Source: Pseudomonadota bacterium | GTDB taxonomy: Bacteria > Pseudomonadota > Alphaproteobacteria > Acetobacterales > Acetobacteraceae | Length of the DNA stretch: 64,000 nt | Assembly: GCA_021801255.1 (NCBI GenBank) | Contig: JAJYYH010000001.1 | Span: forward strand, 1-64,000 | Reading direction: 5' to 3' | Shown here: positions 50,400-59,673 of the stretch, piece after piece | Position numbering within the stretch: the stretch's first letter is position 1 | Layout: every line of letters starts with the position of its first letter | Notes under the pieces: model-generated | Databases searched by the model: none | The model's input: the letters and a program-made list of their open reading frames with translations, nothing else | Told to the model about the DNA's origin: nothing | Translations under genes and position numbers: made by a program

Positions 50400-50884
50400 C
50401 TGTCGCCAGGAGGCGCACCGAGCGTCGCCGCGAGCACTTTGGTCGAATTCAACAAGCGTGTCGCCAAGACCGACCAGCGGCTCAATCGGCTCTTCGACGC
50501 TATCGCGTCCGGTGTCGCCGACCTCGACGCCCCCGGCCTGAAAGAGCGCATCGCCGGCCTCAAGGCGATTCGCGAACAAGCCAGCGCCGACGTCGAGCGC
50601 GCCCAGGCCGCGCTCGACCATGCCGGCAGCCAGTCCGTTAGCCCGATTTGGTGAGAACCTTCGCCCGCACGGCCCGCCAGCGCATCCGGCTGGAGAGCGG
50701 CGGCTACCGCCGCGACCACCTGCGCGCATTGGGCCAGCGTGTCGAGGTCGCGGAAGTCCGCATCATGGGATCGGAATCCGAACTGCTGCGCACCCTGGTC
50801 GCCGCCTCAGGCGGGAAATCGGTCGCAGTCGGTGTTCAGAGATCTGTTCTGAAATGGCGCGCCCGAAGAGATTCGAACTCCTAA
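50400..50884 (+). pseudogene. C-terminal remnant of a serine recombinase, frameshifted
   Basis: Two neighbouring reading frames give pieces of one protein. From 50400 the first reads VEFNKRVAKTDQRLNRLFDA followed by ADLDAPGLKERIAGLKAIRE, and stops near 50654. The second, from about 50648, continues VRTFARTARQRIRLESGGYR and GSESELLRTLVAASGGKS. Together these look like the coiled-coil C-terminus of large serine recombinases. The catalytic N-terminus and the DNA-binding domain are absent, and a frameshift lies near 50640. Its last codons run into the att repeat. It is probably left over from an earlier element at the same tRNA gene. Confidence 0.65.
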
Positions 50885-50903
50885 CCCCCAGATCCGTAGT
50901 CTG
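50855..50903 (-). repeat. att direct repeat, left (displaced 3' part of tRNA-Arg)
   Basis: These 49 bases are identical to 59597-59645, the part of the tRNA-Arg gene from the anticodon stem to the encoded CCA end. They lack the 5' half of a tRNA, so this is not a tRNA gene but the left boundary of the integrated element. Confidence 0.93.
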
Positions 50904-50992
50904 AGTGTCACTCGCGCCAGGGTAAGACACCACTCGCCAATCCCTCATAAAACCTAGCGTTAGGCGCTCTCTGTCCTTTCCTGACACGTCAT

Positions 50993-51004
50993 GGCGTGGT
51001 ATCC
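50993..51004 (+). promoter_or_regulatory. candidate integrase arm-type site, left
   Basis: GGCGTGGTATCC, 89 bases inside the left att repeat and 35 before the integrase ATG. The same 12 bases in the same orientation occur at 59524-59535, 61 bases inside the right att repeat. Such matched sites at both ends are typical of tyrosine-integrase arm binding. Confidence 0.5.
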
Positions 51005-51039
51005 CTTGCGGTAGCAGAGTCGAAAGGGGCACCAAAGCC

Positions 51040-52239
51040 ATGCTGACCCGCATCACCACCGCCGTCATCGATGCCATGAAGCCGGGTGAGGTCGTCTTTG
51101 ATACCGAGGTGCGGGGATTGTTCATCCGTCACCGCGCGGAGGGGGGAGTCCCGCACTACTACCTCAAGACGCGCGTCAAGCGGGTGCAGCGCGTTTTCGC
51201 CATCGGCCGGCATGGGCGCGGACATTGGACCCCGGAAACCGCAAGGCGGGAGGCGGTGCGCATCCTTGGCCTGATCCGCGATGGCCGCGACCTGCATGCC
51301 GAGCGCGCGGAGGAAAAGGCCGGGATCACCTTCGCCAGCTTCGCCGATCGGTATCTCTCCGACTATGCCGGCAACCATCACAAGCCCCGGACGTTGGCCG
51401 AGGAAAGCCGGCTGCTACGCCTGCACGTCATCCCGGCGCTTGGACCGATCAGGCTGAAGGAGATCGATCGGCCGGAGATCGCGCGTCTCCATGCCAGATT
51501 GAGCGGGAAACCCGTCACCGGCAATCGGGCGATTGCGCTGGCGTCATCGATCCTCGGATGGGCGGAGAAGGTTGGCGAACGTCCCGTTGGTAGCAACCCG
51601 GCGCGGGGTATTGATCACTACCCAGAGAAGGCGCGCGAGCGGTATCTCACCGGCGAGGAACTGCAACGCCTAGGCGAGGCCCTGGCGCGAGCGGAGACCG
51701 ATGGGCTGGTGGATTGGCGCTTTGTCGCCATGGTGCGGCTGCTGCTGTTCAGCGGCGCCAGGCTCTCGGAAATCCTCGGCCTTACCTGGCCGCAGGTGGA
51801 TACCGACACCGGGGTTGTCCGGCTCGCCGATAGCAAGACGGGTGCGAAAAATCTCTTCCTTCCCGCGCCCGCCCTGGCCGTCCTAGCGGCGCTTCCGCGT
51901 CTCTCCGATAACCAGCACGTGCTTCCAGGCGATCGCCCTGGAGCGCCACTGGTGGGGGTGCAGCGGCCATGGCAGCGCATCCGCCGCCTGGCCGGCCTGC
52001 CCGATCTCCGCCTGCATGATCTCCGTCATGCCTTCGCCTCTGTCGCAGTTGCCGCCGGCGAGAGCCTTTTCATCGTCGGCAAGCTGCTTGGACATGCCAA
52101 CGTCACGACTACCCAGCGATATGCGCATCTCGCCCCTGATCCCGCCCTGGCCGCCGCTGAGCGCGCCGCCGCCCGCATTGGCGCCGCGATGACGGGCGAG
52201 AGCGGTGACGTTGTGAAGCTGCGGAAGAGCCGTGCCTGA
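51040..52239 (+). CDS. int: tyrosine-family site-specific integrase
   Basis: 399 residues, the length of P4/tRNA-type integrases. An N-terminal arm-binding domain of DUF4102 type (residues about 1-90) is followed by the core-binding helices and the catalytic domain. The full active site is visible: Arg241 (LFSGARLSEIL), Lys266 (DSKTGAKN), His326 and Arg329 (LHDLRHAFAS), His352 (LLGHANVTTTQRY) and nucleophile Tyr361. It should cut and join at the 49-bp tRNA-Arg repeat. It begins 136 bases inside the left att repeat, at the end away from the intact tRNA. All catalytic residues are intact, so the enzyme is probably functional. Confidence 0.96.
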   Translation: MLTRITTAVIDAMKPGEVVFDTEVRGLFIRHRAEGGVPHYYLKTRVKRVQRVFAIGRHGRGHWTPETARREAVRILGLIRDGRDLHAERAEEKAGITFASFADRYLSDYAGNHHKPRTLAEESRLLRLHVIPALGPIRLKEIDRPEIARLHARLSGKPVTGNRAIALASSILGWAEKVGERPVGSNPARGIDHYPEKARERYLTGEELQRLGEALARAETDGLVDWRFVAMVRLLLFSGARLSEILGLTWPQVDTDTGVVRLADSKTGAKNLFLPAPALAVLAALPRLSDNQHVLPGDRPGAPLVGVQRPWQRIRRLAGLPDLRLHDLRHAFASVAVAAGESLFIVGKLLGHANVTTTQRYAHLAPDPALAAAERAAARIGAAMTGESGDVVKLRKSRA

Positions 52240-52304
52240 CATAGAGCGGGCCGAGGTAGCGCCGCCAGCGCCGCCCCGGCCCTAAACCCGAACCATGGAG
52301 ACCC

Positions 52305-53018
52305 ATGGCCGTGTCTGATCGAGCAAATACCACCATTGCCGCGAAGATCGAAGCCGCGTTCGAGGAAGAGATCGCGCGGTCGCTCGCCTTTCCTGATGAA
52401 GTCTGGGCCGCCCATTTTACCAAGCGAGCGGCGGACTATCGGCGCAATCTGCCGACTATAGAAAAGGTCATCGCCGCCTTTGTCGAGGTGCTTGGGTGGC
52501 ACCGCGCGCCGCCTTTGAGAAACCTTGCCGAAGTGCTCGACATTGGCCGACTTGCCGAAACTGTCGTGTATTTCCGGGCCATACGGCAGATCACTTTCTA
52601 CAGTCCACACGCAATTCAGCAGATGCGGGGGGCCATCCGCGACTTGAGTCTGACGTTGCCTGACATCCTGGCAAAAACTGAGCGTGAGGCTGCGGATGTT
52701 GACATTAACTTAGATCGCCCGATCGATCTTCTCCGAACGCTGATCGCCGCTATCGCTCCTTTTGAGAAGATCGCGCGATCTCGCATCGATCGGCGATCTT
52801 TTATTCCACACGCCGCCATTAGGAATATTGCCGCGAAAGTCCGCATCGTGTTGGCTCGGCAAGGTTTGTCGGTAAATTTCACGCATGAAGATACCGACGC
52901 GACAAAAATAACCAGACTTCTCCTCAATCTTTGCAAAATCTACGCCGAAGACGGCGCCATCGTGGAGGCCGTTCGGGGCAGGGCTGGCAAAATTATTCGA
53001 AGCCGCCAGCCGACATAG
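52305..53018 (+). CDS. unrecognised 237-residue protein of the element
   Basis: No known family is seen. The protein is soluble and mainly helical, with ITFYSPHAIQQMRGAIRDLS and a C-terminal KIYAEDGAIVEAVRGRAGKI segment. It has no metal motif, HTH or signal peptide. Base composition from about 52570 to 52960 is visibly more AT-rich than in the neighbouring genes, a sign of separate origin. It lies between int and the AlpA-like gene, where satellites and islands often carry regulatory or immunity genes. Defence or phage-interference functions would be guesses. Confidence 0.65.
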   Translation: MAVSDRANTTIAAKIEAAFEEEIARSLAFPDEVWAAHFTKRAADYRRNLPTIEKVIAAFVEVLGWHRAPPLRNLAEVLDIGRLAETVVYFRAIRQITFYSPHAIQQMRGAIRDLSLTLPDILAKTEREAADVDINLDRPIDLLRTLIAAIAPFEKIARSRIDRRSFIPHAAIRNIAAKVRIVLARQGLSVNFTHEDTDATKITRLLLNLCKIYAEDGAIVEAVRGRAGKIIRSRQPT

Positions 53019-53069
53019 AGGCGCGTGTTGTCGCAAGGTGGCGCATCGCAACGGATTCGGAGTCGCCCG

Positions 53070-53264
53070 ATGGAACCCCTGCTCACGAAAGACGAGGCTG
53101 CTGCCGCCTTGTGCGTCTCGCGTCGCACGATCGACAGATTGAAAGATTTACCCCGCGTCCGGTTGACTGGCAGACGTATCGCCTTTCGCCCCGCCGACCT
53201 CGCCGCATTTGCCGCCGCACGAGTGTCCGCGCCAGCCGCGCCGGCTGACGCCGAACGCGCCTAA
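53070..53264 (+). CDS. AlpA/MerR-like helix-turn-helix protein (excisionase candidate)
   Basis: 64 residues. MEPLLTKDEAAAALCVSRRT begins a compact winged HTH of the AlpA/excisionase (helix_turn_helix_17) type, followed by IDRLKDLPRVRLTGRRIAFR and DLAAFAAARV. Such proteins bend att DNA for excision or activate integrase and replication genes in P4-like islands. The ATG at 53070 fits the domain start and has GGAG eight bases before it; the longer frame starts in the preceding stretch. It lies directly before the replication genes. Confidence 0.8.
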   Translation: MEPLLTKDEAAAALCVSRRTIDRLKDLPRVRLTGRRIAFRPADLAAFAAARVSAPAAPADAERA

Positions 53265-53333
53265 CCCCCCCAACACAAGAAAAACCCGCCACGGCTGGCA
53301 GGCCGGGCGGGCTTGAAACAGGAACTCACAGAC

Positions 53334-54164
53334 ATGCATACCGCCGATTTTGGCCAGAATCAACCGTTTTTCGGCCCAGACCCCGACGAGGTGATGCCGG
53401 CCACCGAGTGCGCCCTCGGACTTGCCGAGGGCGGTTGGGCAACATTTCCAATGAACGCCCGCAAGCGGCCTGTTTGCCGGCACGGCGTGAAGGACGCGAC
53501 CATTGACCCCGATCGCATCCGCGAGATGTTCTCCCATCCCGGCGCCGAGCTGGTCGCGATCGCCACCGGCACACCGTCCGGGATCAGCATCCTCGATATC
53601 GACCGCCAACATGATGGCCTCGAGTGGTGGCAAGAAAATCGCGGGCGTCTCCCCAGAACTCTAACATGGCGCACGAGATCGGGCGGGTTGCATGTGGTGT
53701 TTCAGCACCGCCCCGAGATTCGGACGGTCGTGCTCGGCGAGATTGGGCGCGGCATCGAAATCCGCGCAACGGGCGCGAGCGCGATCTACTGGCCGGCGCA
53801 GGGATATCCCTATCTCTGCGAGGCGCCCCCCGCGCGCTGGCCTGACTGGCTCCGTCCTCCTCCTCGACCCGCCTATGCGCCCCCCGTGCCCGCCGCCTGG
53901 CAAGGCAGCGATCGGCGAGCGAGACGATATGCCGAGGGGGCGTTGGCGAACGCGATCGCCCGCGTCGCGACCGCCGCGCCTGGCGAGCGGAATAGCCGCC
54001 TCAACCAGGAAGCCTTCGGACTGGCCCGGCTGACGGAAGCCGGCGCGCTCACCGCCGGCGAAATCGTCTATGGCCTCGCCAACGCCGCCACTGCCGCCGG
54101 TCTCGATCCCCGCGAGGTCTCCGCCACGCTCAGGAGCGCCTTGAGCGGCCGAGGTGCGGCATGA
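53334..54164 (+). CDS. primase-polymerase (prim-pol) domain protein
   Basis: 276 residues. It matches bifunctional DNA primase/polymerase N-terminal domains of plasmids and satellites. ALGLAEGGWATFPMNARKRP opens the fold, ILDIDRQHDGLEWW carries the DxD metal residues (Asp88, Asp90), WRTRSGGLHVVF supplies His120, and GIEIRATGASAIYWP the third acidic residue Glu142. A helical C-terminus of about 85 residues follows. With the DUF3987 ATPase next door it would prime and extend replication of the element. The ATG at 53334 has AGGA ten bases upstream. Its stop overlaps the ATPase start by four bases. Confidence 0.85.
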   Translation: MHTADFGQNQPFFGPDPDEVMPATECALGLAEGGWATFPMNARKRPVCRHGVKDATIDPDRIREMFSHPGAELVAIATGTPSGISILDIDRQHDGLEWWQENRGRLPRTLTWRTRSGGLHVVFQHRPEIRTVVLGEIGRGIEIRATGASAIYWPAQGYPYLCEAPPARWPDWLRPPPRPAYAPPVPAAWQGSDRRARRYAEGALANAIARVATAAPGERNSRLNQEAFGLARLTEAGALTAGEIVYGLANAATAAGLDPREVSATLRSALSGRGAA

Positions 54165-55699
54165 GCGCGCGCACGGCCGAGAGTATCGCCGAGGAGGTGT
54201 TGGCCGGCCTCGGCGTGGGTGGTGATCCCGAATGGGATGCCGCACCTGATCTCGCAGTGATGCGCCTTGGCCGACGCGAGCCGCCGGCGCTCCCGCACCA
54301 TGTCTTCGGGCCGCGTTGGAGCGAGTGGATCGCCACATGCGCCGAGGCCGCCGCCTGCCCGCCGGATTATGTCGCAACCGGCCTGCTCGCCTCGGCATCG
54401 GCCCTGATCGGGCACGCTCGATGGGTGCAGGCAACGCCTGGATGGCGCGAACCGCCTCACCTTTGGCTTGCCAATGTTGGCGATTCGGGAACGGGGAAGA
54501 GCGGCGGCGCGGACGCCCTCAACAGGGACGTTCTGCCCGAGATCGAGCGCCGGATGCTTGGCGATTTCCCCGAGCGCCTGGCGCAGTGGAAGGCATTGGC
54601 CGAGGCGGACTCTGCACGGCACGGCGAGTGGCAAAAGTCAGTCAAGGAGTCTTCCAAGGGCGGTTTCGCGCCGCCCATGCCGCCCAAGCGCGAGGCGCCG
54701 CCGATAGAACCCCAACCGCCGCGATTGCGACAAACTGATGTAACGATCGAGCGCCTGGCCTCGATCCTCGCCGATGCCGCCCCCAAGGGCGTGGTCGTCA
54801 TGCGAGACGAGATCGCCGGCTGGTTGCTCGGCCTAAACCAATACAACGATGCGGGGCGAGCGTTCTGGATTGAAGCTTTCGGCGGCCGCCCCTACCGCAT
54901 CGAGCGCGTCAAGCTCCCTGAGCCGCTTATCATCCCGAGGCTTGCCGTTTCTGTGCATGGATCGATCCAGCCCGAAAAACTCGCCGAGCTATTCAATGGC
55001 GCGGATGACGGCCTCCTCGCGAGATTTCTTTGGGTTTGGCCGCGCGTGTTGCCGTTCCGCCTATCGCGAGCCGCGCCGCCTACGCAATTCGCGATAGACG
55101 CTCTTGATCGGTTGCGCCTGCTCGATCTCCGGCCCGGTGAAGGAGATGCGCCGCCAAAGCCGATCTATGTGCCGTTGGCTGATGCTGCCCTGCCGGCGCT
55201 CGAAGCCTTCGCCCGCGACATGCAGACCAAGCAAGAAGAGGCTGGGGGCCTGCTTCGATCAGCTTATGGGAAGGCGCGCGGCGTGGCGCTGCGCTTGTCG
55301 CTGGTGCTCGCTTTCCTGCGCTGGTGCTCCGAGGAGGGTATGGCGCCGCCGCCGGCGGAGATTCCCGAGGGGGTTTTTCTCGACGCCTGCGACACCGTTT
55401 CGGATTACTTTCTGCCCATGGCCGAGCGCGTCTATGGCGACGCCGCCGCATCTCCCGAGCAACGCGACGCCGCCACCCTGGCGCGATGGGTATGGAAAGT
55501 GCGTCCCGAGGCGGTTCACGTTCGCACGATGCAGCGTGAAACGCGGCTTCCGGGCCTGGTGGAGGCCGCGCCTATCCATGCCGCATGCGCGCGGCTGATC
55601 GAGGCCGGCTGGCTCAAACCCCCGGCCCGCGCCGGCATCCTTGGCCGTCCCGCCGCCCGCTATAGCGTCAATCCCGTGATCCTGGAGGCACCACGATGA
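54161..55699 (+). CDS. DUF3987 ATPase/helicase of the replication module
   Basis: 512 residues. Walker A is GDSGTGKS (107-114) in LWLANVGDSGTGKSGGADAL, and Walker B is VVVMRDEIAGWL (Asp216, Glu217). The remaining text (ASSILADAAP-like sensor region, SVHGSIQPEKLAELF, DDGLLARFLWVWP) is that of DUF3987, an ATPase that accompanies prim-pol genes in phages, satellites and plasmids and probably acts as the replicative helicase. The last 100 residues look like a winged helix (AACARLIEAGWLKPPARAGI). It is coupled at both ends by ATGA overlaps. Confidence 0.88.
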   Translation: MSARTAESIAEEVLAGLGVGGDPEWDAAPDLAVMRLGRREPPALPHHVFGPRWSEWIATCAEAAACPPDYVATGLLASASALIGHARWVQATPGWREPPHLWLANVGDSGTGKSGGADALNRDVLPEIERRMLGDFPERLAQWKALAEADSARHGEWQKSVKESSKGGFAPPMPPKREAPPIEPQPPRLRQTDVTIERLASILADAAPKGVVVMRDEIAGWLLGLNQYNDAGRAFWIEAFGGRPYRIERVKLPEPLIIPRLAVSVHGSIQPEKLAELFNGADDGLLARFLWVWPRVLPFRLSRAAPPTQFAIDALDRLRLLDLRPGEGDAPPKPIYVPLADAALPALEAFARDMQTKQEEAGGLLRSAYGKARGVALRLSLVLAFLRWCSEEGMAPPPAEIPEGVFLDACDTVSDYFLPMAERVYGDAAASPEQRDAATLARWVWKVRPEAVHVRTMQRETRLPGLVEAAPIHAACARLIEAGWLKPPARAGILGRPAARYSVNPVILEAPR

Positions 55700-56466
55700 C
55701 CCGGTGGAGCGCGAGATTCAGAGGCGCCGGACATGAGGGCGCCGCCCAACCCTCGGTTGTGGTTTCGCCATCCCGTCCGCTGGCACTGGATGGCCATATC
55801 TCCGCTTATACCCCCCGTGACACAATTGACTCTATTGACACAAGTCAGGGTGCGGACGCCAGCAAGGGGGGTTTTGTCAATAGTGTCCATTGTGTCAAAG
55901 GGGGTATAGCCGAAGAAAAGGGGCGATCGGCCAATGCAGCGCCCATTTCTCTCCGCGCCAAAGATCAACCCAAGGTTGCGCCATGTGGCGCCCAAGATGG
56001 GGCTGTCCATAAATATGGAGAGTCTCATGTTCACGATTTGTTCACTGCGCATAAAGAGGGGTCTATAGAGGGTGACGGCTCCGATGAGGTGGAAGCCCTG
56101 GCGCGGGAACTGCTCGCCATCGCCGAACGCAACCCAGCAACGCGCATCCCCGATCCAGCGGCGGCGCTGATCTATTTCCGCTCCGAAGCCCGCCGCCGGC
56201 TCGAACTGATCGGCCGGCGGGCGCGCGATGCCACCGGCGGCGAGGATATCGAGCGAGCCGCGCTCATGGCCGAGGAACACGCCACCATGGCCAGCCCAGA
56301 GGCTCACAGTGCGGCCGTGGCTGCCCTGCTGCTCACCGCTGGTCCATTGGCCGGCGCCCCCGGCGCGCGGGCCTGTAGAGCCTGCGGGCGCGGTATCTGG
56401 TGCTCGTCAAGCTGGCGCGGATCGCCGCCGGATATCTGCTGGCAGTGCTCGCGGGTGACGCCATGA
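55696..56466 (+). CDS. unrecognised protein with C-terminal cysteine cluster
   Basis: 256 residues. The first 110 are low-complexity and look disordered. Residues about 125-215 are helical (VEALARELLAIAERNPATRI, ALIYFRSEARRRLELIGRRA). The end carries CRACGRGIWC and CWQC, enough cysteines for a zinc ribbon. No family is recognised. The start overlaps the ATPase stop by four bases, and the end overlaps the next gene likewise. The N-terminal third is less certain because that stretch differs in style and base composition. Confidence 0.55.
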   Translation: MTRWSARFRGAGHEGAAQPSVVVSPSRPLALDGHISAYTPRDTIDSIDTSQGADASKGGFVNSVHCVKGGIAEEKGRSANAAPISLRAKDQPKVAPCGAQDGAVHKYGESHVHDLFTAHKEGSIEGDGSDEVEALARELLAIAERNPATRIPDPAAALIYFRSEARRRLELIGRRARDATGGEDIERAALMAEEHATMASPEAHSAAVAALLLTAGPLAGAPGARACRACGRGIWCSSSWRGSPPDICWQCSRVTP

Positions 56467-56705
56467 GCACGTCGCGGCTTTGCCGCCGATGCCGATTGCC
56501 GGCGCCGAGCCAATGTCTAGCCTGCGCGCTGGCGACGAACCCGCGTGGTGCCGAAACCCCGGCCGAAGCCGCCCGCCACCTGGCCGAGATGGCCGAGCGG
56601 ATGCGGCCGGACTGGCAGCAACCCGAGCGATTTTTCGAAGCGAAATCGGCCTTGGTTGACGCCGCAAGGCGCCTGGCCGCAACCCTGAAAGGAACTGAAC
56701 CATGA
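56463..56705 (+). CDS. small protein with paired Cys motifs
   Basis: 80 residues. The start MSTSRLCRRCRLPAPSQCLA contains CxxC, and a further CxxC-like pair follows in QCLAC, so a small zinc-binding fold is likely. A helical tail follows (ARHLAEMAERMRPDW). It overlaps both neighbours by four bases. Function unknown; the preceding gene also ends in cysteine pairs, so the two may form a complex. Confidence 0.55.
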   Translation: MSTSRLCRRCRLPAPSQCLACALATNPRGAETPAEAARHLAEMAERMRPDWQQPERFFEAKSALVDAARRLAATLKGTEP

Positions 56706-57205
56706 GCGATGAAACCCCGATGCCAGCAACGCCGCCTGAACCGGCTTACCGCGTGCCCAGCCACGGAAAAGGCCGCTTGCGGGTGATCCGCCCCGGCGAG
56801 AGTGGCAATCCTTCGGGCCTGAGCGGCCGATACGGCGAGGTTGTGCGCCTCGCACGCCAGGCCAGCCCGGAAGCGATGCGAGCCATGATCGAGATCATGC
56901 GCAACCCCGACGAGGAAACCCGCGCCAGGATTGTCGCGATCGAAGGGATTTTGAACCGCGCCTTCGGACGCCCGCGCGAGATGCAGCCCGATGCCCCGGC
57001 GCCGCTGGTGGACGTGAACCGCATGAGCGAGGTGCAGTTGGGGTTGCTGATCGAGGCCCTGCGCTTGGCGAAAGCGGCCCGCTCGACTACGCCGCCGGCC
57101 GAGCCGCAGCCCGAGGGTGAGCCCGAGCCGCCTGCGGTTTCGCCGCCGCGCTCTGGGCCGCTCGATGTCCCGAGCCATGTCACCCCCCCGATCGCGACGC
57201 CATGA
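56702..57205 (+). CDS. DUF5681-like / possible small terminase-like protein
   Basis: 167 residues. The segment IRPGESGNPSGLSGRYGEVV matches the P-G-x-S-G-N-P-x-G motif of DUF5681 proteins, which in prophages often lie next to the large terminase. A helical region follows (EAMRAMIEIMRNPDEETRAR, ILNRAFGRPREM), then a Pro-rich tail. In a satellite a small terminase would redirect packaging of the helper phage. This reading is inference: no large terminase lies nearby, and the motif alone does not prove DNA-packaging function. Confidence 0.5.
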   Translation: MSDETPMPATPPEPAYRVPSHGKGRLRVIRPGESGNPSGLSGRYGEVVRLARQASPEAMRAMIEIMRNPDEETRARIVAIEGILNRAFGRPREMQPDAPAPLVDVNRMSEVQLGLLIEALRLAKAARSTTPPAEPQPEGEPEPPAVSPPRSGPLDVPSHVTPPIATP

Positions 57206-57361
57206 CTCCGAGCACCTGCTTTGGGGTCTGCGGTTCTGCGCGTGAAAGTGGCCGCAATCCGCCGTTCATTGCGGCATTTACCGCGCCACGGGTAACGCAC
57301 GGGTAACGCGGCGGCTTGTGTTCCGCTTTTGTTCACGGCCGAGCAGGTGAAAAGCGGCGGG

Positions 57362-57420
57362 TTTGGCGGTTTGGTTTTCCAGAACCGTTCCGCCAAAAGC
57401 GGACGCTAAGGTATTATAAT
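57362..57420 (+). promoter_or_regulatory. promoter with consensus -10 and operator-like palindrome
   Basis: TATAAT stands at 57415-57420. At 16-18 bases before it there is no TTGACA-like box; the right half of the palindrome TTTGGCGG...CCGCCAAA (57362-57397) occupies this place. That is the layout of a promoter controlled by a bound regulator. Transcription would run into the small genes from 57536. Confidence 0.5.
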
Positions 57421-57472
57421 GATTGCAGCGAGGGGTGTTTTCGAGTAGCTTACTCACGGTGCTCAGCCGCCC

Positions 57473-57515
57473 CGCGCGGGGGTTTCGGGTAGTCGCTCTA
57501 CCCGGCCCCCGCGCG
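57473..57515 (+). promoter_or_regulatory. strong 5'-leader hairpin before the small-gene block
   Basis: CGCGCGGGGG (57473-57482) pairs with CCCCCGCGCG (57506-57515), and CGGGTAG (57486-57492) with CTACCCG (57498-57504), with a five-base loop. It lies 20 bases upstream of the first start codon (57536) and its ribosome site AAAGGAA, so it may act in leader regulation or as a terminator for upstream transcription. Confidence 0.5.
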
Positions 57516-57535
57516 TCACCGAAAGGAACCCGCGA

Positions 57536-57733
57536 ATGTCCGATCCTGGCCAGCCTGCCACGCCCGGCCGCCCTGGGCGTCCTGGGCGCCGTCCTGGCGT
57601 GGCATGGACGGGCAGGCGCGCATTGGCCGAGGCGGCGGTCCTGGACGGCGCCGCGACGCTGCTGCGCGAAGCCGCGCGTCGGCTGGCCGAGCTGGCCGGC
57701 GAGGCCCCCCGCGCTACGAACGAAGGACGATGA
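57536..57733 (+). CDS. small basic protein with Gly-Arg-Pro-rich N-terminus
   Basis: 65 residues. The N-terminus is Gly/Arg/Pro repeats (GRPGRPGRRPG), followed by one amphipathic helix (LAEAAVLDGAATLLREAARR). AAAGGAA lies eight bases before the ATG. It is the first gene after the repeat-rich segment and is followed by another gene one base later. No family is recognised. A nucleic-acid-binding role is suggested only by its charge. Confidence 0.5.
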   Translation: MSDPGQPATPGRPGRPGRRPGVAWTGRRALAEAAVLDGAATLLREAARRLAELAGEAPRATNEGR

Positions 57734-57734
57734 A

Positions 57735-57983
57735 ATGGCCGAGCAAAAACCTGTTAGCGAGATGACGCGGGCAGAATTTGCCGCAGCGAAAAGACAGCTT
57801 TCATTGAACGCCGCTGCTGAAGCGCGGCGAGAGATGAACGCTGCGGCGGACGCGCGGATAACGGCACGGTTCGAGGACGGAAGCGCTCGCGCGGCGGCCG
57901 ATCGGCTGCGGTATGTGCGAGCCCGCATCGCGCGCGAACTGGTCGAGATGGCTTCCGCGCGGCCCAAGGATTCGGCGCCATGA
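57735..57983 (+). CDS. small helical protein of the element
   Basis: 82 residues, starting MAEQKPVSEMTRAEFAAAKR. Almost entirely helical and charged, with no known motif. The start is placed at 57735 because GAAGGA lies a few bases upstream and the next ATG in this frame is far inside; the frame is open further upstream through the preceding gene. Its stop overlaps the next start by four bases. Confidence 0.5.
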   Translation: MAEQKPVSEMTRAEFAAAKRQLSLNAAAEARREMNAAADARITARFEDGSARAAADRLRYVRARIARELVEMASARPKDSAP

Positions 57984-58162
57984 CGAAAGACGGCATCCAT
58001 TCGCCGCGCGCGATCGCGAGGACGCCCGCCTACAGGCACGCGCTCGCAACGGGACACGCCGACGTTGCACGGCCGCCAAGTGTCCCGCATGGCAAGCCTG
58101 GCACGGCCATCCACACATTGCCGCCCTCATTCCTGCCTGAGCCGAGGAAAAATCCAAAATGA
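57980..58162 (+). CDS. 60-residue protein of the element
   Basis: Pro/His/Arg-rich, 60 residues (MTKDGIHSPRAIARTPAYRH start). Its main support is the arrangement: both ends join neighbours with exact ATGA overlaps, which is unlikely by chance in three successive genes. There is no recognised domain. Confidence 0.45.
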   Translation: MTKDGIHSPRAIARTPAYRHALATGHADVARPPSVPHGKPGTAIHTLPPSFLPEPRKNPK

Positions 58163-58794
58163 TCGACGCAAGCCCGAGCGCGCTTTCGGCCCTTTACGAC
58201 GAAACCATCGCCGCCGCCGGACGCGAGCGAGCGGTGCAGGCGGTGGCAGCGCAGCAGCGCCACGCGGCCCGCGTCCGGGCTGCCAAAGCCGCCGTGCTGG
58301 CGTTGGAAGCCCAGATCGAGGCTGCGGTTATTGCGGTTGCTGATGGCGCGCCGCCCGCGTTGCTGGCCGATCTCGGGGCGCGGGTGGCGCAAGCCAAGGC
58401 GGAGCTTGGAGCGTTGGAGGCCGCTGCCGCGCTGCACGCCGAGCGCGCGATCGCGGCGCGCGATGAGGTTGAGCGCGCGACACACAATGCCGCTGCGGCG
58501 ATCGCAAATTTCGCTGCCGATGCGTTGCTCGACTCGGCGGTGCGCATCGAGCGTGCTGATGCAGAAAAAAAGGCCGCCGTCTCCGACTACGAGGCCGGCT
58601 TGCGGGCGCTCGCCTATGCCTCGAGCCGGGGGTGGAAGCAAAGGCCTAATGTGCGCGGCGGGCTGAGGCTGTCCAAACGGGCGCCAAGGCCCGAGGAAAC
58701 CGAAATTCAGGAATATCCGAAACCAGCGATGATGCGCGCGACTCTGATTGAGATGGGCGCGTTGTCGGAACAGCCGACGGAATCGAAACAATGA
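58159..58794 (+). CDS. Ala-rich coiled-coil protein of the element
   Basis: 211 residues. About 20-155 form one long Ala-rich coiled coil (AAVLALEAQIEAAVIAVADG, AKAELGALEAAAALHAERAI), followed by a basic tail (GWKQRPNVRGGLRLSKRAP). There is no known family. Long helical proteins of this kind in phages serve as scaffolds or tail-assembly factors, but no such identity can be claimed. It is coupled to both neighbours through ATGA. Confidence 0.6.
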   Translation: MIDASPSALSALYDETIAAAGRERAVQAVAAQQRHAARVRAAKAAVLALEAQIEAAVIAVADGAPPALLADLGARVAQAKAELGALEAAAALHAERAIAARDEVERATHNAAAAIANFAADALLDSAVRIERADAEKKAAVSDYEAGLRALAYASSRGWKQRPNVRGGLRLSKRAPRPEETEIQEYPKPAMMRATLIEMGALSEQPTESKQ

Positions 58795-59156
58795 GCGGCC
58801 AACAAACCCTCGCGACGCAGACGACATGGACACCTGCCGGAACCACCGGCCAGCTTGCGTTGTCCCCCCCGCAGTCTCAGGCTGTCCTGCCAGCGGTTGA
58901 TTCGAGTAACACGGCCATGGTGGTCACGAACGGCTCCAGCGGCCCGCTCTACGTCATGTTCGGCACCGGTGGTGCCGTGACAGCCAGCCCGGCACTGGCC
59001 GGCTGCTTCATTGTCCCGGCCGGCGCGACGGCTGTTGTCCCCGATTCGTTCTCGCCTGGAACCGCCACGATTGCGGCCATTTGGAGTGGCGGCGGCGGGG
59101 TGGTGTCGATCACACGCGGCACGATGACGGCGGCTAGTGTGGTGGCGCGCGGCTGA
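58791..59156 (+). CDS. small beta-rich protein, phage-decoration-like in character
   Basis: 121 residues, without charged helices, rich in Thr, Ser, Gly, Ala and Val. SNTAMVVTNGSSGPLYVMFG and ATAVVPDSFSPGTATIAAIW have the alternating pattern of a beta sandwich. Proteins of this character are common among phage virion surface genes. No family can be named. It starts four bases before the end of the coiled-coil gene. If the element is a satellite this could be a capsid-surface component. Confidence 0.55.
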   Translation: MSGQQTLATQTTWTPAGTTGQLALSPPQSQAVLPAVDSSNTAMVVTNGSSGPLYVMFGTGGAVTASPALAGCFIVPAGATAVVPDSFSPGTATIAAIWSGGGGVVSITRGTMTAASVVARG

Positions 59157-59379
59157 TCGTGCGGCGCCATCCCGGCACGATGCCAGCGCTTCCGCCAGCG
59201 TGCGCATCGGCGAGCTGGTGCGAGAGTTGGATAAGGCGCAGCGCGAAGGGCCGGCAGGGGAATATAAACTTCCCAACGCTGGGAAGTCTAAAGCCGATGC
59301 CATCACCGATGCCGGCCTAAGCCGCTCGCAGGCATATCGCGCCCGGACAGTGACGCGCATCGCTATCCATTGCGGATAG
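59137..59379 (+). CDS. small protein or gene remnant near the right end
   Basis: 80 residues from GTG 59137 or 59 residues from GTG 59200. The second half reads LPNAGKSKADAITDAGLSRS, which looks like a HTH segment of larger phage proteins, so this may be the remaining piece of such a gene. The first 20 residues overlap the previous gene and have no protein character. A ribosome site is lacking at both possible starts. It ends in an inverted repeat (59362-59380). Confidence 0.4.
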   Translation: MWWRAADRAAPSRHDASASASVRIGELVRELDKAQREGPAGEYKLPNAGKSKADAITDAGLSRSQAYRARTVTRIAIHCG

Positions 59380-59402
59380 CTAACGGAGCTATCGGAGCTA
59401 TC
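59362..59402. repeat. GCTATC motif cluster near the right att
   Basis: GCTATCC (59362-59368) and GGATAGC (59374-59380) form a hairpin, directly followed by two tandem GGAGCTATC units (59385-59402). In total GCTATC or its complement appears four times in 41 bases. The surrounding 59380-59596 stretch holds no other gene. The cluster is a candidate binding site for the AlpA-like protein or for replication. Confidence 0.6.
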
Positions 59403-59523
59403 GGCAAGGGGGTGGCGCGTGAAAACGCCGCCCCTCGATCGCTGGTGACGGGGATCACGCTTCCGCGAGGCTAGAGACCCGGAAACCGCTCTTGGCTCAC
59501 CCCGGCATGGCCTGGCAGCGCAG

Positions 59524-59535
59524 GGCGTGGTATCC
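59524..59535 (+). promoter_or_regulatory. candidate integrase arm-type site, right
   Basis: GGCGTGGTATCC, identical to 50993-51004 and in the same orientation, 61 bases inside the right att repeat. Confidence 0.5.
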
Positions 59536-59596
59536 ATTTGGTATGCGGAGGCATATTTGCGCCAGCGTATCGACGGAATAACCCATTGATATTGCT

Positions 59597-59645
59597 TGGC
59601 GCGCCCGAAGAGATTCGAACTCCTAACCCCCAGATCCGTAGTCTG
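59597..59645 (-). repeat. att direct repeat, right
   Basis: The 49 bases from the CCA end to the anticodon stem of tRNA-Arg, identical to 50855-50903. This copy restores a full tRNA after integration. Confidence 0.93.
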
Positions 59646-59673
59646 GTGCTCTATCCAATTGAGCTACGGGCGC
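59597..59673 (-). tRNA. tRNA-Arg (anticodon ACG)
   Basis: 77 nt including an encoded CCA end. Acceptor stem GCGCCCG/CGGGCGC with discriminator G, D-arm GCTC...GAGC, anticodon stem CCAGA/TCTGG around loop CTACGGA (anticodon ACG at 59639-59637) and T-arm AGGAG-TTCGAAT-CTCTT with one G-U pair. It reads CGN arginine codons. It lies downstream of leuB on the same strand and is the integration target of the element; its 3' part is supplied by the element's own att copy. Confidence 0.95.

Follow-up and report, generated by a model that had tools for sequence, protein, structure and literature searches.

The first 64,000 nucleotides of contig JAJYYH010000001.1 (assembly GCA_021801255.1; this whole stretch is called the window here), from an alphaproteobacterium of the family Acetobacteraceae, carry at a tRNA-Arg(ACG) gene an island of about 8.7 kb, which is probably a terminase-carrying phage satellite of the phage-inducible chromosomal island (PICI) type. 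This is supported by exact repeats at the island ends together with an empty site in another genome; by intact integrase, AlpA-like, prim-pol and DUF3987 genes; and by low ratios of nonsynonymous to synonymous substitution in the integrase, prim-pol and DUF3987 genes (dN/dS 0.11-0.20). Excision, replication, packaging and the use of a helper are predicted for the island from its sequence. An original prediction, made from the letters of the window, had already read the island as a satellite; a phage satellite is still the best explanation, made firmer by the small terminase described below, but the labels "P4-like" and "active or recently active" that came with it are unsupported.

Island ends and the tRNA-Arg(ACG) site

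A direct-repeat scan delimited the island as a unit of 8,742 bp between two 49-nt direct repeats with 100% identity; the runner-up, among the best 20 of 51 direct-repeat families, was a repeat of 32 nt at 84%. The right, tRNA-side attachment repeat (59597-59645) is the 3′ part of an intact tRNA-Arg(ACG) on the minus strand (59597-59673; ARAGORN and fold), which is the insertion site, and the left, distal repeat (50855-50903) is the displaced 3′ 49 nt of that tRNA. ARAGORN called a tRNA at both island ends, with a proper D-arm and acceptor stem in the right copy only. The left call was considered as a second functional tRNA and rejected, its fold being a foreign 5′ half paired largely via G-U, without a proper D-arm; it is a displaced 3′ remnant of the tRNA joined to unrelated sequence. 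The integrase gene sits at the island end opposite the tRNA.

When the two flanks (600 bp each) were joined, they gave one unbroken match of 1,082 bp, at 79.5%, spanning the junction in a genome of another genus of the same family (G039:C35). Because this match runs continuously across the junction, an empty tRNA-Arg site exists; the repeats and the size agree with what had been predicted. Within the genus, the tRNA-Arg site of G005 has the right flank alone in common with the island locus, and the sites of the three other genus genomes examined (G001, G002 and G003) have little in common with it beyond the tRNA. The island is not distinct from its flanks in GC content or base composition, and as a whole it found no match in the phage DNA collection.

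Integration and replication genes

All annotated island genes lie on the plus strand, from the integrase gene at the left end to the gene of a 121-aa protein at the right. The tyrosine integrase (51040-52239; 399 aa) is intact (PF00589, 74.8 bits; phrog_1, E 8e-59) and stands at 82% and a pairwise dN/dS of 0.13 to its homologue in G004. An AlpA-type helix-turn-helix (HTH) regulator or excisionase follows at 53070-53264, with an alternative GTG start possible at 53025 (phrog_66, E 4e-9; PF12728, 26.3 bits, just under the cut-off). The prim-pol primase domain protein (53334-54164; PF09250, 85 bits; phrog_695) has a possible alternative TTG start at 53313 and a dN/dS of 0.20 against G004. It adjoins a DUF3987 ATPase of 512 aa (54161-55699; PF13148, 176 bits; phrog_2373, "DNA helicase"), at 82% and a dN/dS of 0.11 to its G002 homologue, which is probably the replicative helicase. 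That the integrase has its nearest homologue in one genome (G004) and the DUF3987 protein in another (G002) is consistent with mosaic exchange. The complete integrase, prim-pol and DUF3987 genes and the AlpA-like protein of the original prediction were all recovered.

Just behind the DUF3987 gene lies a putative replication origin (55794-55921), where TGACACAA/TTGTGTCA-type repeats occur in both directions. Among 61 inverted-repeat pairs in the region it is the longest (50-nt arms, 80%), and in G002 the block is conserved at 89% over 122 nt, whereas the adjoining stretches reach 75% and 74%. Six core hexamers fall within 110 bp, a density not attained in 500 Markov shuffles, the hexamers having been picked after viewing the sequence. 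This repeat cluster near 55,860 resembles an iteron origin and could serve the adjoining replication genes.

A small terminase of the DUF5681 kind

The assignment of 56702-57205 (plus strand, 167 aa) as the gene of a DUF5681-like small terminase is supported by family membership, gene order and profile comparison. The protein falls in phrog_15261 together with gp370 of Acetobacter phage phiAX1, which scores above the Pfam cut-off for DUF5681 and whose gene lies directly before gp380 (large terminase, TerL; phrog_2, E 8e-23), followed by portal and coat. A profile of 20 homologues, compared with 177,635 distinct sequences of the Protein Data Bank (PDB), retrieved two at E <= 1, both named small terminase subunit (6w7t and 7joq, E 1e-6 and 2e-6); a 10-member profile placed one of the small terminases first (E 0.003) and the other at rank four among ten (0.25). 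What had been predicted as a possible small terminase is strengthened by these matches. The pairwise dN/dS of the gene is 0.33-0.41.

Homologues of this terminase were found at 23 places in 195 genomes, 18 of which had a match. A large terminase stands directly behind the gene at seven of the 23 places; at the other 16, the island included, none was found in the 0.5-9.9 kb covered behind it (less than 1 kb in four of the 16). A tblastn search of phage records with the island terminase gave one record. Members of DUF5681 (PF18932, "unknown function") behave as small terminases, in their profile link to 6w7t and 7joq and in their place before TerL; the one paper found on DUF5681 states no terminase role in its accessible part.

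Remaining gene content

Gene calls came from a custom codon-score script; all 14 island open reading frames (ORFs) were scanned against PHROGs and the ten largest also against Pfam and NCBIfam. Within this scope no portal, capsid, tail or large terminase gene was credibly matched (the tail-protein PHROG matches, E 0.09 and 0.96, are too weak to count), and the transfer of the island would therefore depend on another element. Relaxase and mating-pair genes found no match among the ten ORFs scanned against Pfam and NCBIfam. Thus the predicted lack of virion and conjugation genes stands as far as matches go, with the qualification that 58791-59156 encodes a protein distantly homologous to one of the head region, as discussed below. 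Ten ORF proteins compared with PADLOC for defence genes gave one weak match (DndD, E 0.09, to the 58159-58794 protein).

Besides the integrase, AlpA-like, prim-pol, DUF3987 and terminase genes there are about eight further small ORFs without assignment, all on the plus strand. A 237-aa protein (52305-53018) adjoins the integrase; it has no Pfam or NCBIfam match and is at 42% to the gene in the same place in G004. A 256-aa protein with a Cys-rich C-terminus (55696-56466), whose gene contains the repeats in its 5′ part, is at 51% to its G002 homologue, with a pairwise dN/dS of 0.59, a weaker constraint than in the neighbouring replication genes. An 80-aa CxxC protein (56463-56705) is at 79% over 78 codons to the gene directly before the small terminase in a sister island of the same genome (G000:C43). 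To the right of the terminase are two ORFs of uncertain coding status and without a homologue found (57536-57733, 65 aa; 57980-58162, 60 aa), an 82-aa ORF (57735-57983), and an Ala/Glu-rich protein of 211 aa read as a coiled coil (58159-58794; ORF and codon score, no homologue), whose start codon overlaps the stop of the preceding ORF. The 82-aa ORF was considered as scaffold-derived, by a short motif common to its N-terminus and the scaffold C-terminus of the resident structural cluster described below, and this was rejected (5.6 bits, against 8.4 for the best of 2,000 shuffles).

Relatives of the island

DUF3987 homologues at E <= 1e-20 were present in 53 of 397 genomes of the family. The original prediction had taken the host group to be one with few described satellites, which fits the literature listings, but related elements are evidently common there. 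Among named genomes 113 candidate stretches were collected and 80 kept, mostly with about 9 kb each side, some with far less and many ending at contig ends; they come from Acidocella and Roseomonas (Acetobacterales in the NCBI taxonomy), Methylobacterium, Rhodobacteraceae, Sphingomonas and others, the weaker ones including Planctomycetota and a few further groups. One Acidocella contig gave scores identical to those of a family genome. A DUF5681-type gene, detected by either of two queries, is present in 11 of the 80; on reading, these 11 have a Gly-Asn-Pro-Gly-like motif, in variant form in some (L130, L145). Portal or TerL profiles matched none of the 80 named loci and the major capsid protein (MCP) profile matched one, with profiles built from few seeds that may miss unrelated types. 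No conjugation gene, which in close relatives would have spoken against a satellite, was seen among the families listed (25 of 70 PHROG, 25 of 40 Pfam) for 85 proteins of 11 related loci.

Viral contigs give a different picture. Thirteen of 18 that carry a DUF3987 homologue match one or more of the head or large-terminase profiles, and in four (L216, L217, L218 and L232) portal, capsid, small and large terminase profiles occur together, which is the layout of capsid-forming PICIs (cfPICIs); L216 and L217 were among the profile seeds and match by construction. In L216 four genes were confirmed by PHROGs, and its DUF3987 protein is at 58% to that of the island. The order in L216 and L217 is integrase, primase, DUF3987, then portal, protease, MCP, small terminase and TerL. 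No tail gene is readable in the part covered, and so these more distant relatives carry head and packaging genes but are not the full prophages whose presence among relatives would have spoken against a satellite. As single queries against the viral contigs, the island's DUF3987, 58791-59156 and 58159-58794 proteins found no relative. Because DUF3987 homologues occur both in islands and in cfPICI-like viral contigs, a similar replication gene evidently serves terminase-only and capsid-forming elements.

This kinship raises an alternative, namely that the island is a reduced prophage or a former cfPICI which has lost its head genes and now merely excises or stays put. The homologous DUF3987 genes of L216 and L217, with their full head and packaging set, would suit such a descent, as would a right end with several small ORFs without homologues. 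However, no portal, capsid or TerL remnant was met in the island; dN/dS is low for integrase, prim-pol and DUF3987; the island terminase belongs to phrog_15261, whereas that of L216 belongs to phrog_83; and the short, terminase-only layout is common to sister islands. We therefore regard this descent as unlikely, and a PICI-type satellite as the better account.

The same genome holds three further satellite-like islands. That of C43 (G000:C43:3068-8902, L024; 5.8 kb) carries an integrase, a small HTH gene, a toprim primase, a helicase-like protein, a CxxC protein and a terminase, and a blind 7-mer scan of it picked out GACGCAA, with 12 copies where the helicase gene ends. The C45 island (G000:C45:79435-86903, L025) has an integrase, a pair read as toxin-antitoxin, an AlpA-like gene (phrog_66), a primase, a D5 helicase and a terminase; the C43 and C45 terminases are relatives of the island terminase. 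The C66 island (G000:C66:1524-13170, L245) has an integrase, a weak HTH match, a VapE-like ATPase, a TerL (phrog_2, E 2e-21) and a tail-protein-like gene at the contig end, with no small terminase of the island's type in the part covered.

Direct repeats were found around one of ten other islands (L027). This island measures about 8.8 kb, belongs to another genome of the genus (G003:C54; L027:8772-17608) and has 46-bp repeats at tRNA-Thr(CGT) and an integrase at 46% to that of the window.

A capsid-adjacent homologue and a resident contractile cluster

The last gene of the island (58791-59156, plus strand, 121 aa) encodes a protein with one other match in 100 genomes (E 1e-3), the product of the gene that immediately follows a major capsid gene in G002. 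A profile hidden Markov model of seven such capsid-adjacent genes, run over 30,438 ORFs, ranked the island protein straight after the family members (22.2 bits, E 2e-4), whereas the best of 5,000 shuffles reached 12.1 bits; the alignment covers residues 19-113 at 27-36% identity. Single-sequence phmmer at E 1e-3 did not detect the relation, tblastn against phage records gave 0 records, and the AlphaFold model of the protein alone (predicted local distance difference test, pLDDT, 48) was not used. By this profile comparison the protein is a distant but significant relative of the capsid-adjacent protein. Elsewhere, a satellite-like locus of Roseomonas sp. E05 (L126:13956-14636) has one virion gene, for a DNA-ejection protein (phrog_598, E 2e-41), near a contig end; it is possibly a parallel to the island's capsid-adjacent homologue.

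The capsid-adjacent family belongs to a contractile cluster, which in the island's own genome occupies G000:C58:52000-71900 and 71901-91000 (L203, L204; relatives L205-L215 and L080). Profiles identify TerL, portal, scaffold, capsid and sheath genes in it, and tube, baseplate and fibre genes were recognised by reading; it is the sole complete structural cluster met in this genome. Measured against the G002 query, its capsid is present at 88-93% in six of six genus genomes searched, with one internal TAG in the G005 copy; copies at 58-72% occur in four other genera, which makes 10 of 20 genomes overall. The neighbouring genes are partly in common among genomes, with pairwise dN/dS of 0.05-0.50, and no integrase or small-terminase gene was seen on reading beside the C58 cluster. 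Among phages, Komagataeibacter phages phiKX1/2 have the nearest capsid (53%); eight phiKX1 proteins were compared with the capsid-adjacent protein, and none matched it. Because the capsid is genus-wide, dN/dS is low, no integrase or small terminase was seen and phiKX1 lacks a capsid-adjacent match among the proteins compared, the cluster looks domesticated and like a gene transfer agent (GTA), and is a candidate viriform. Literature searches on GTAs with Acetobacteraceae or contractile tails named none among the matches listed, and the accessible part of a GTA classification paper names no contractile alphaproteobacterial GTA (PMC9662315).

The island might instead be a satellite of this resident, genus-wide cluster and not of an outside phage. 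For this speak the homology of the 58791-59156 protein to a capsid-adjacent protein that phiKX1 does not appear to share; the cluster TerL without a small terminase seen beside it, whereas the islands supply one; the standing of C58 as the only complete structural cluster met; and viral contig L234, in which a DUF5681-type gene accompanies a relative of the C58 TerL (25%, E 4e-26). Yet the capsid-adjacent identity is just 27-36%, and the islands are sporadic where the cluster is in every genus genome searched. The TerLs paired with small terminases are mostly of phrog_2 type, whereas the C58 TerL is phrog_38, with a BLAST match to that of L234 alone among them; a 13-mer comparison of island and cluster found no common sequence longer than 16 bp; and particle production by the cluster is unproven. 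We consider a resident cluster as the packager improbable, and there is similarly little chance that the islands of the genus at large exploit a domesticated, vertically inherited contractile GTA-like cluster, so that a DNA packager run by the host would carry island genomes of 6-9 kb. To our knowledge no satellite of a GTA has been described, and literature searches on such satellites named none among the matches listed. A satellite of a phage remains our preferred interpretation.

Comparison with known satellites

PICIs and the Staphylococcus aureus pathogenicity islands (SaPIs) are integrated at a gene end with direct repeats, and have an integrase, a regulator, a primase/replication module with its own origin and a small terminase or other means of redirecting packaging; a helper phage induces and packages them. 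The island resembles them in its gene-end direct repeats, integrase, regulator, replication module and small terminase, with no structural gene matched. Of the PICI features it thus has a site-specific integrase with direct-repeat sites and a small terminase without structural-gene match, while the repeat cluster beside its prim-pol and DUF3987 genes is a candidate origin. It differs in its DUF3987 gene with a separate prim-pol, in its DUF5681-type terminase and in its Acetobacterales-type host, and it has no recognised capsid-size gene but does have a head-protein homologue. With cfPICIs it shares the front half of integrase, primase and DUF3987, as in L216 and L217, but portal, protease, capsid and TerL were not matched, the small terminase alone being found.

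P4-like satellites have an integrase, AlpA, primase and helicase functions and a tRNA site, together with sid, psu and delta capsid genes and a fused alpha primase-helicase. The island is like them in the integrase, AlpA, primase/helicase functions and tRNA site, but its prim-pol and DUF3987 are separate genes, and no sid, psu, delta or ash match, nor any other P4 capsid-size or decoration protein, was found in the scans; the "P4-like" label of the original prediction is dropped on these grounds. Integrative mobilisable or conjugative elements are set apart by relaxase or mating-pair genes, of which the ten ORFs scanned gave none.

A similar gene set is that of the phage-inducible chromosomal minimalist islands (PICMIs). 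Their search model, in the accessible part of its description, makes integrase, AlpA (PF12728) and a DUF3987-type primase mandatory (PMC10803314); PICMIs lie always at fis, in Vibrionaceae, and average 6.7 kb (PMC10803314). The island has this gene set (with AlpA 0.7 bits under the cut-off) and a similarly small size, but lies at tRNA-Arg and not at fis, is non-Vibrionaceae, has a terminase, measures 8.7 kb and is one of several related islands in one genome. The PICMI model search gave 135 elements, 67 in Vibrionaceae (PMC10803314, same part), which means that integrase-AlpA-DUF3987 elements outside Vibrionaceae have been detected before. The types of satellite given in the accessible part of a 2024 review are P4-like, PICI, cfPICI, PICI-like element (PLE), PICMI, virion-encapsidated integrative mobile elements (VEIMEs), Tycheposons and a soil type (PMC11389934). 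In literature searches on alphaproteobacterial satellites and on DUF3987 satellites, with subscription papers mostly outside their range, the present element type is not described among the matches listed.

Proposed mechanism and its weighing

We propose that induction of, or infection by, a helper phage would lead to expression of the AlpA-type protein, which together with the integrase would excise the island in circular form. Replication would then be initiated by the prim-pol and DUF3987 proteins from the repeats around 55,860, and the island small terminase would recognise satellite DNA and recruit the helper large terminase, so that helper-built particles would be filled with satellite DNA; the product of 58791-59156 may become part of the borrowed capsid or modify it. 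Present or recent activity, as originally predicted, is allowed by the intact genes, exact repeats and empty site, but is shown by none of them.

Several findings weigh against this interpretation. As to a helper, the portal family PF04860 is absent from the seven genomes searched, the island's own included, and PF03237 TerL matches in its own genome are limited to the C58 cluster and the C66 island. The phiAX1-type TerL was found in none of 20 genomes, in a search without positive control, and a phiAX1-type phage was accordingly rejected as resident helper. In the island itself no packaging site was found, the origin motif was selected after the sequence had been seen, and a blind 7-mer scan put GC-rich words near 57,724 first and not the origin candidate. 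The PF12728 match of the AlpA-like protein lies 0.7 bits under the Pfam cut-off of 27. The island terminase taken alone has no Pfam match, while 10 of 20 family members do match DUF5681; its AlphaFold model is weak (pLDDT 66), and none of 42 fold-search matches is significant, small terminases ranking 3 and 12 among them. Finally, the ORFs right of the terminase are without homologue in related islands, which suggests that the right end may be recent cargo or decaying.

A further alternative is that generalised transduction or natural uptake moves the island, a small integrative one, and that its terminase is used otherwise. The failure to find a helper or a packaging site would suit this, but it is very unlikely, since members of the terminase family turn up next to integrase and replication genes in several islands, in this genome and in others.

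The terminase-carrying PICI-type satellite proposed here points to a satellite type of the Acetobacterales and other alphaproteobacteria, of which one genome of 3.2 Mb holds four satellite-like islands. For members of the "unknown" DUF5681 family there is now sequence-based evidence of a function as small terminases, and this would help in finding further islands of the kind. Through the island's link to a capsid-adjacent gene of the conserved contractile cluster, the possible use of GTA-like particles by satellites becomes testable.

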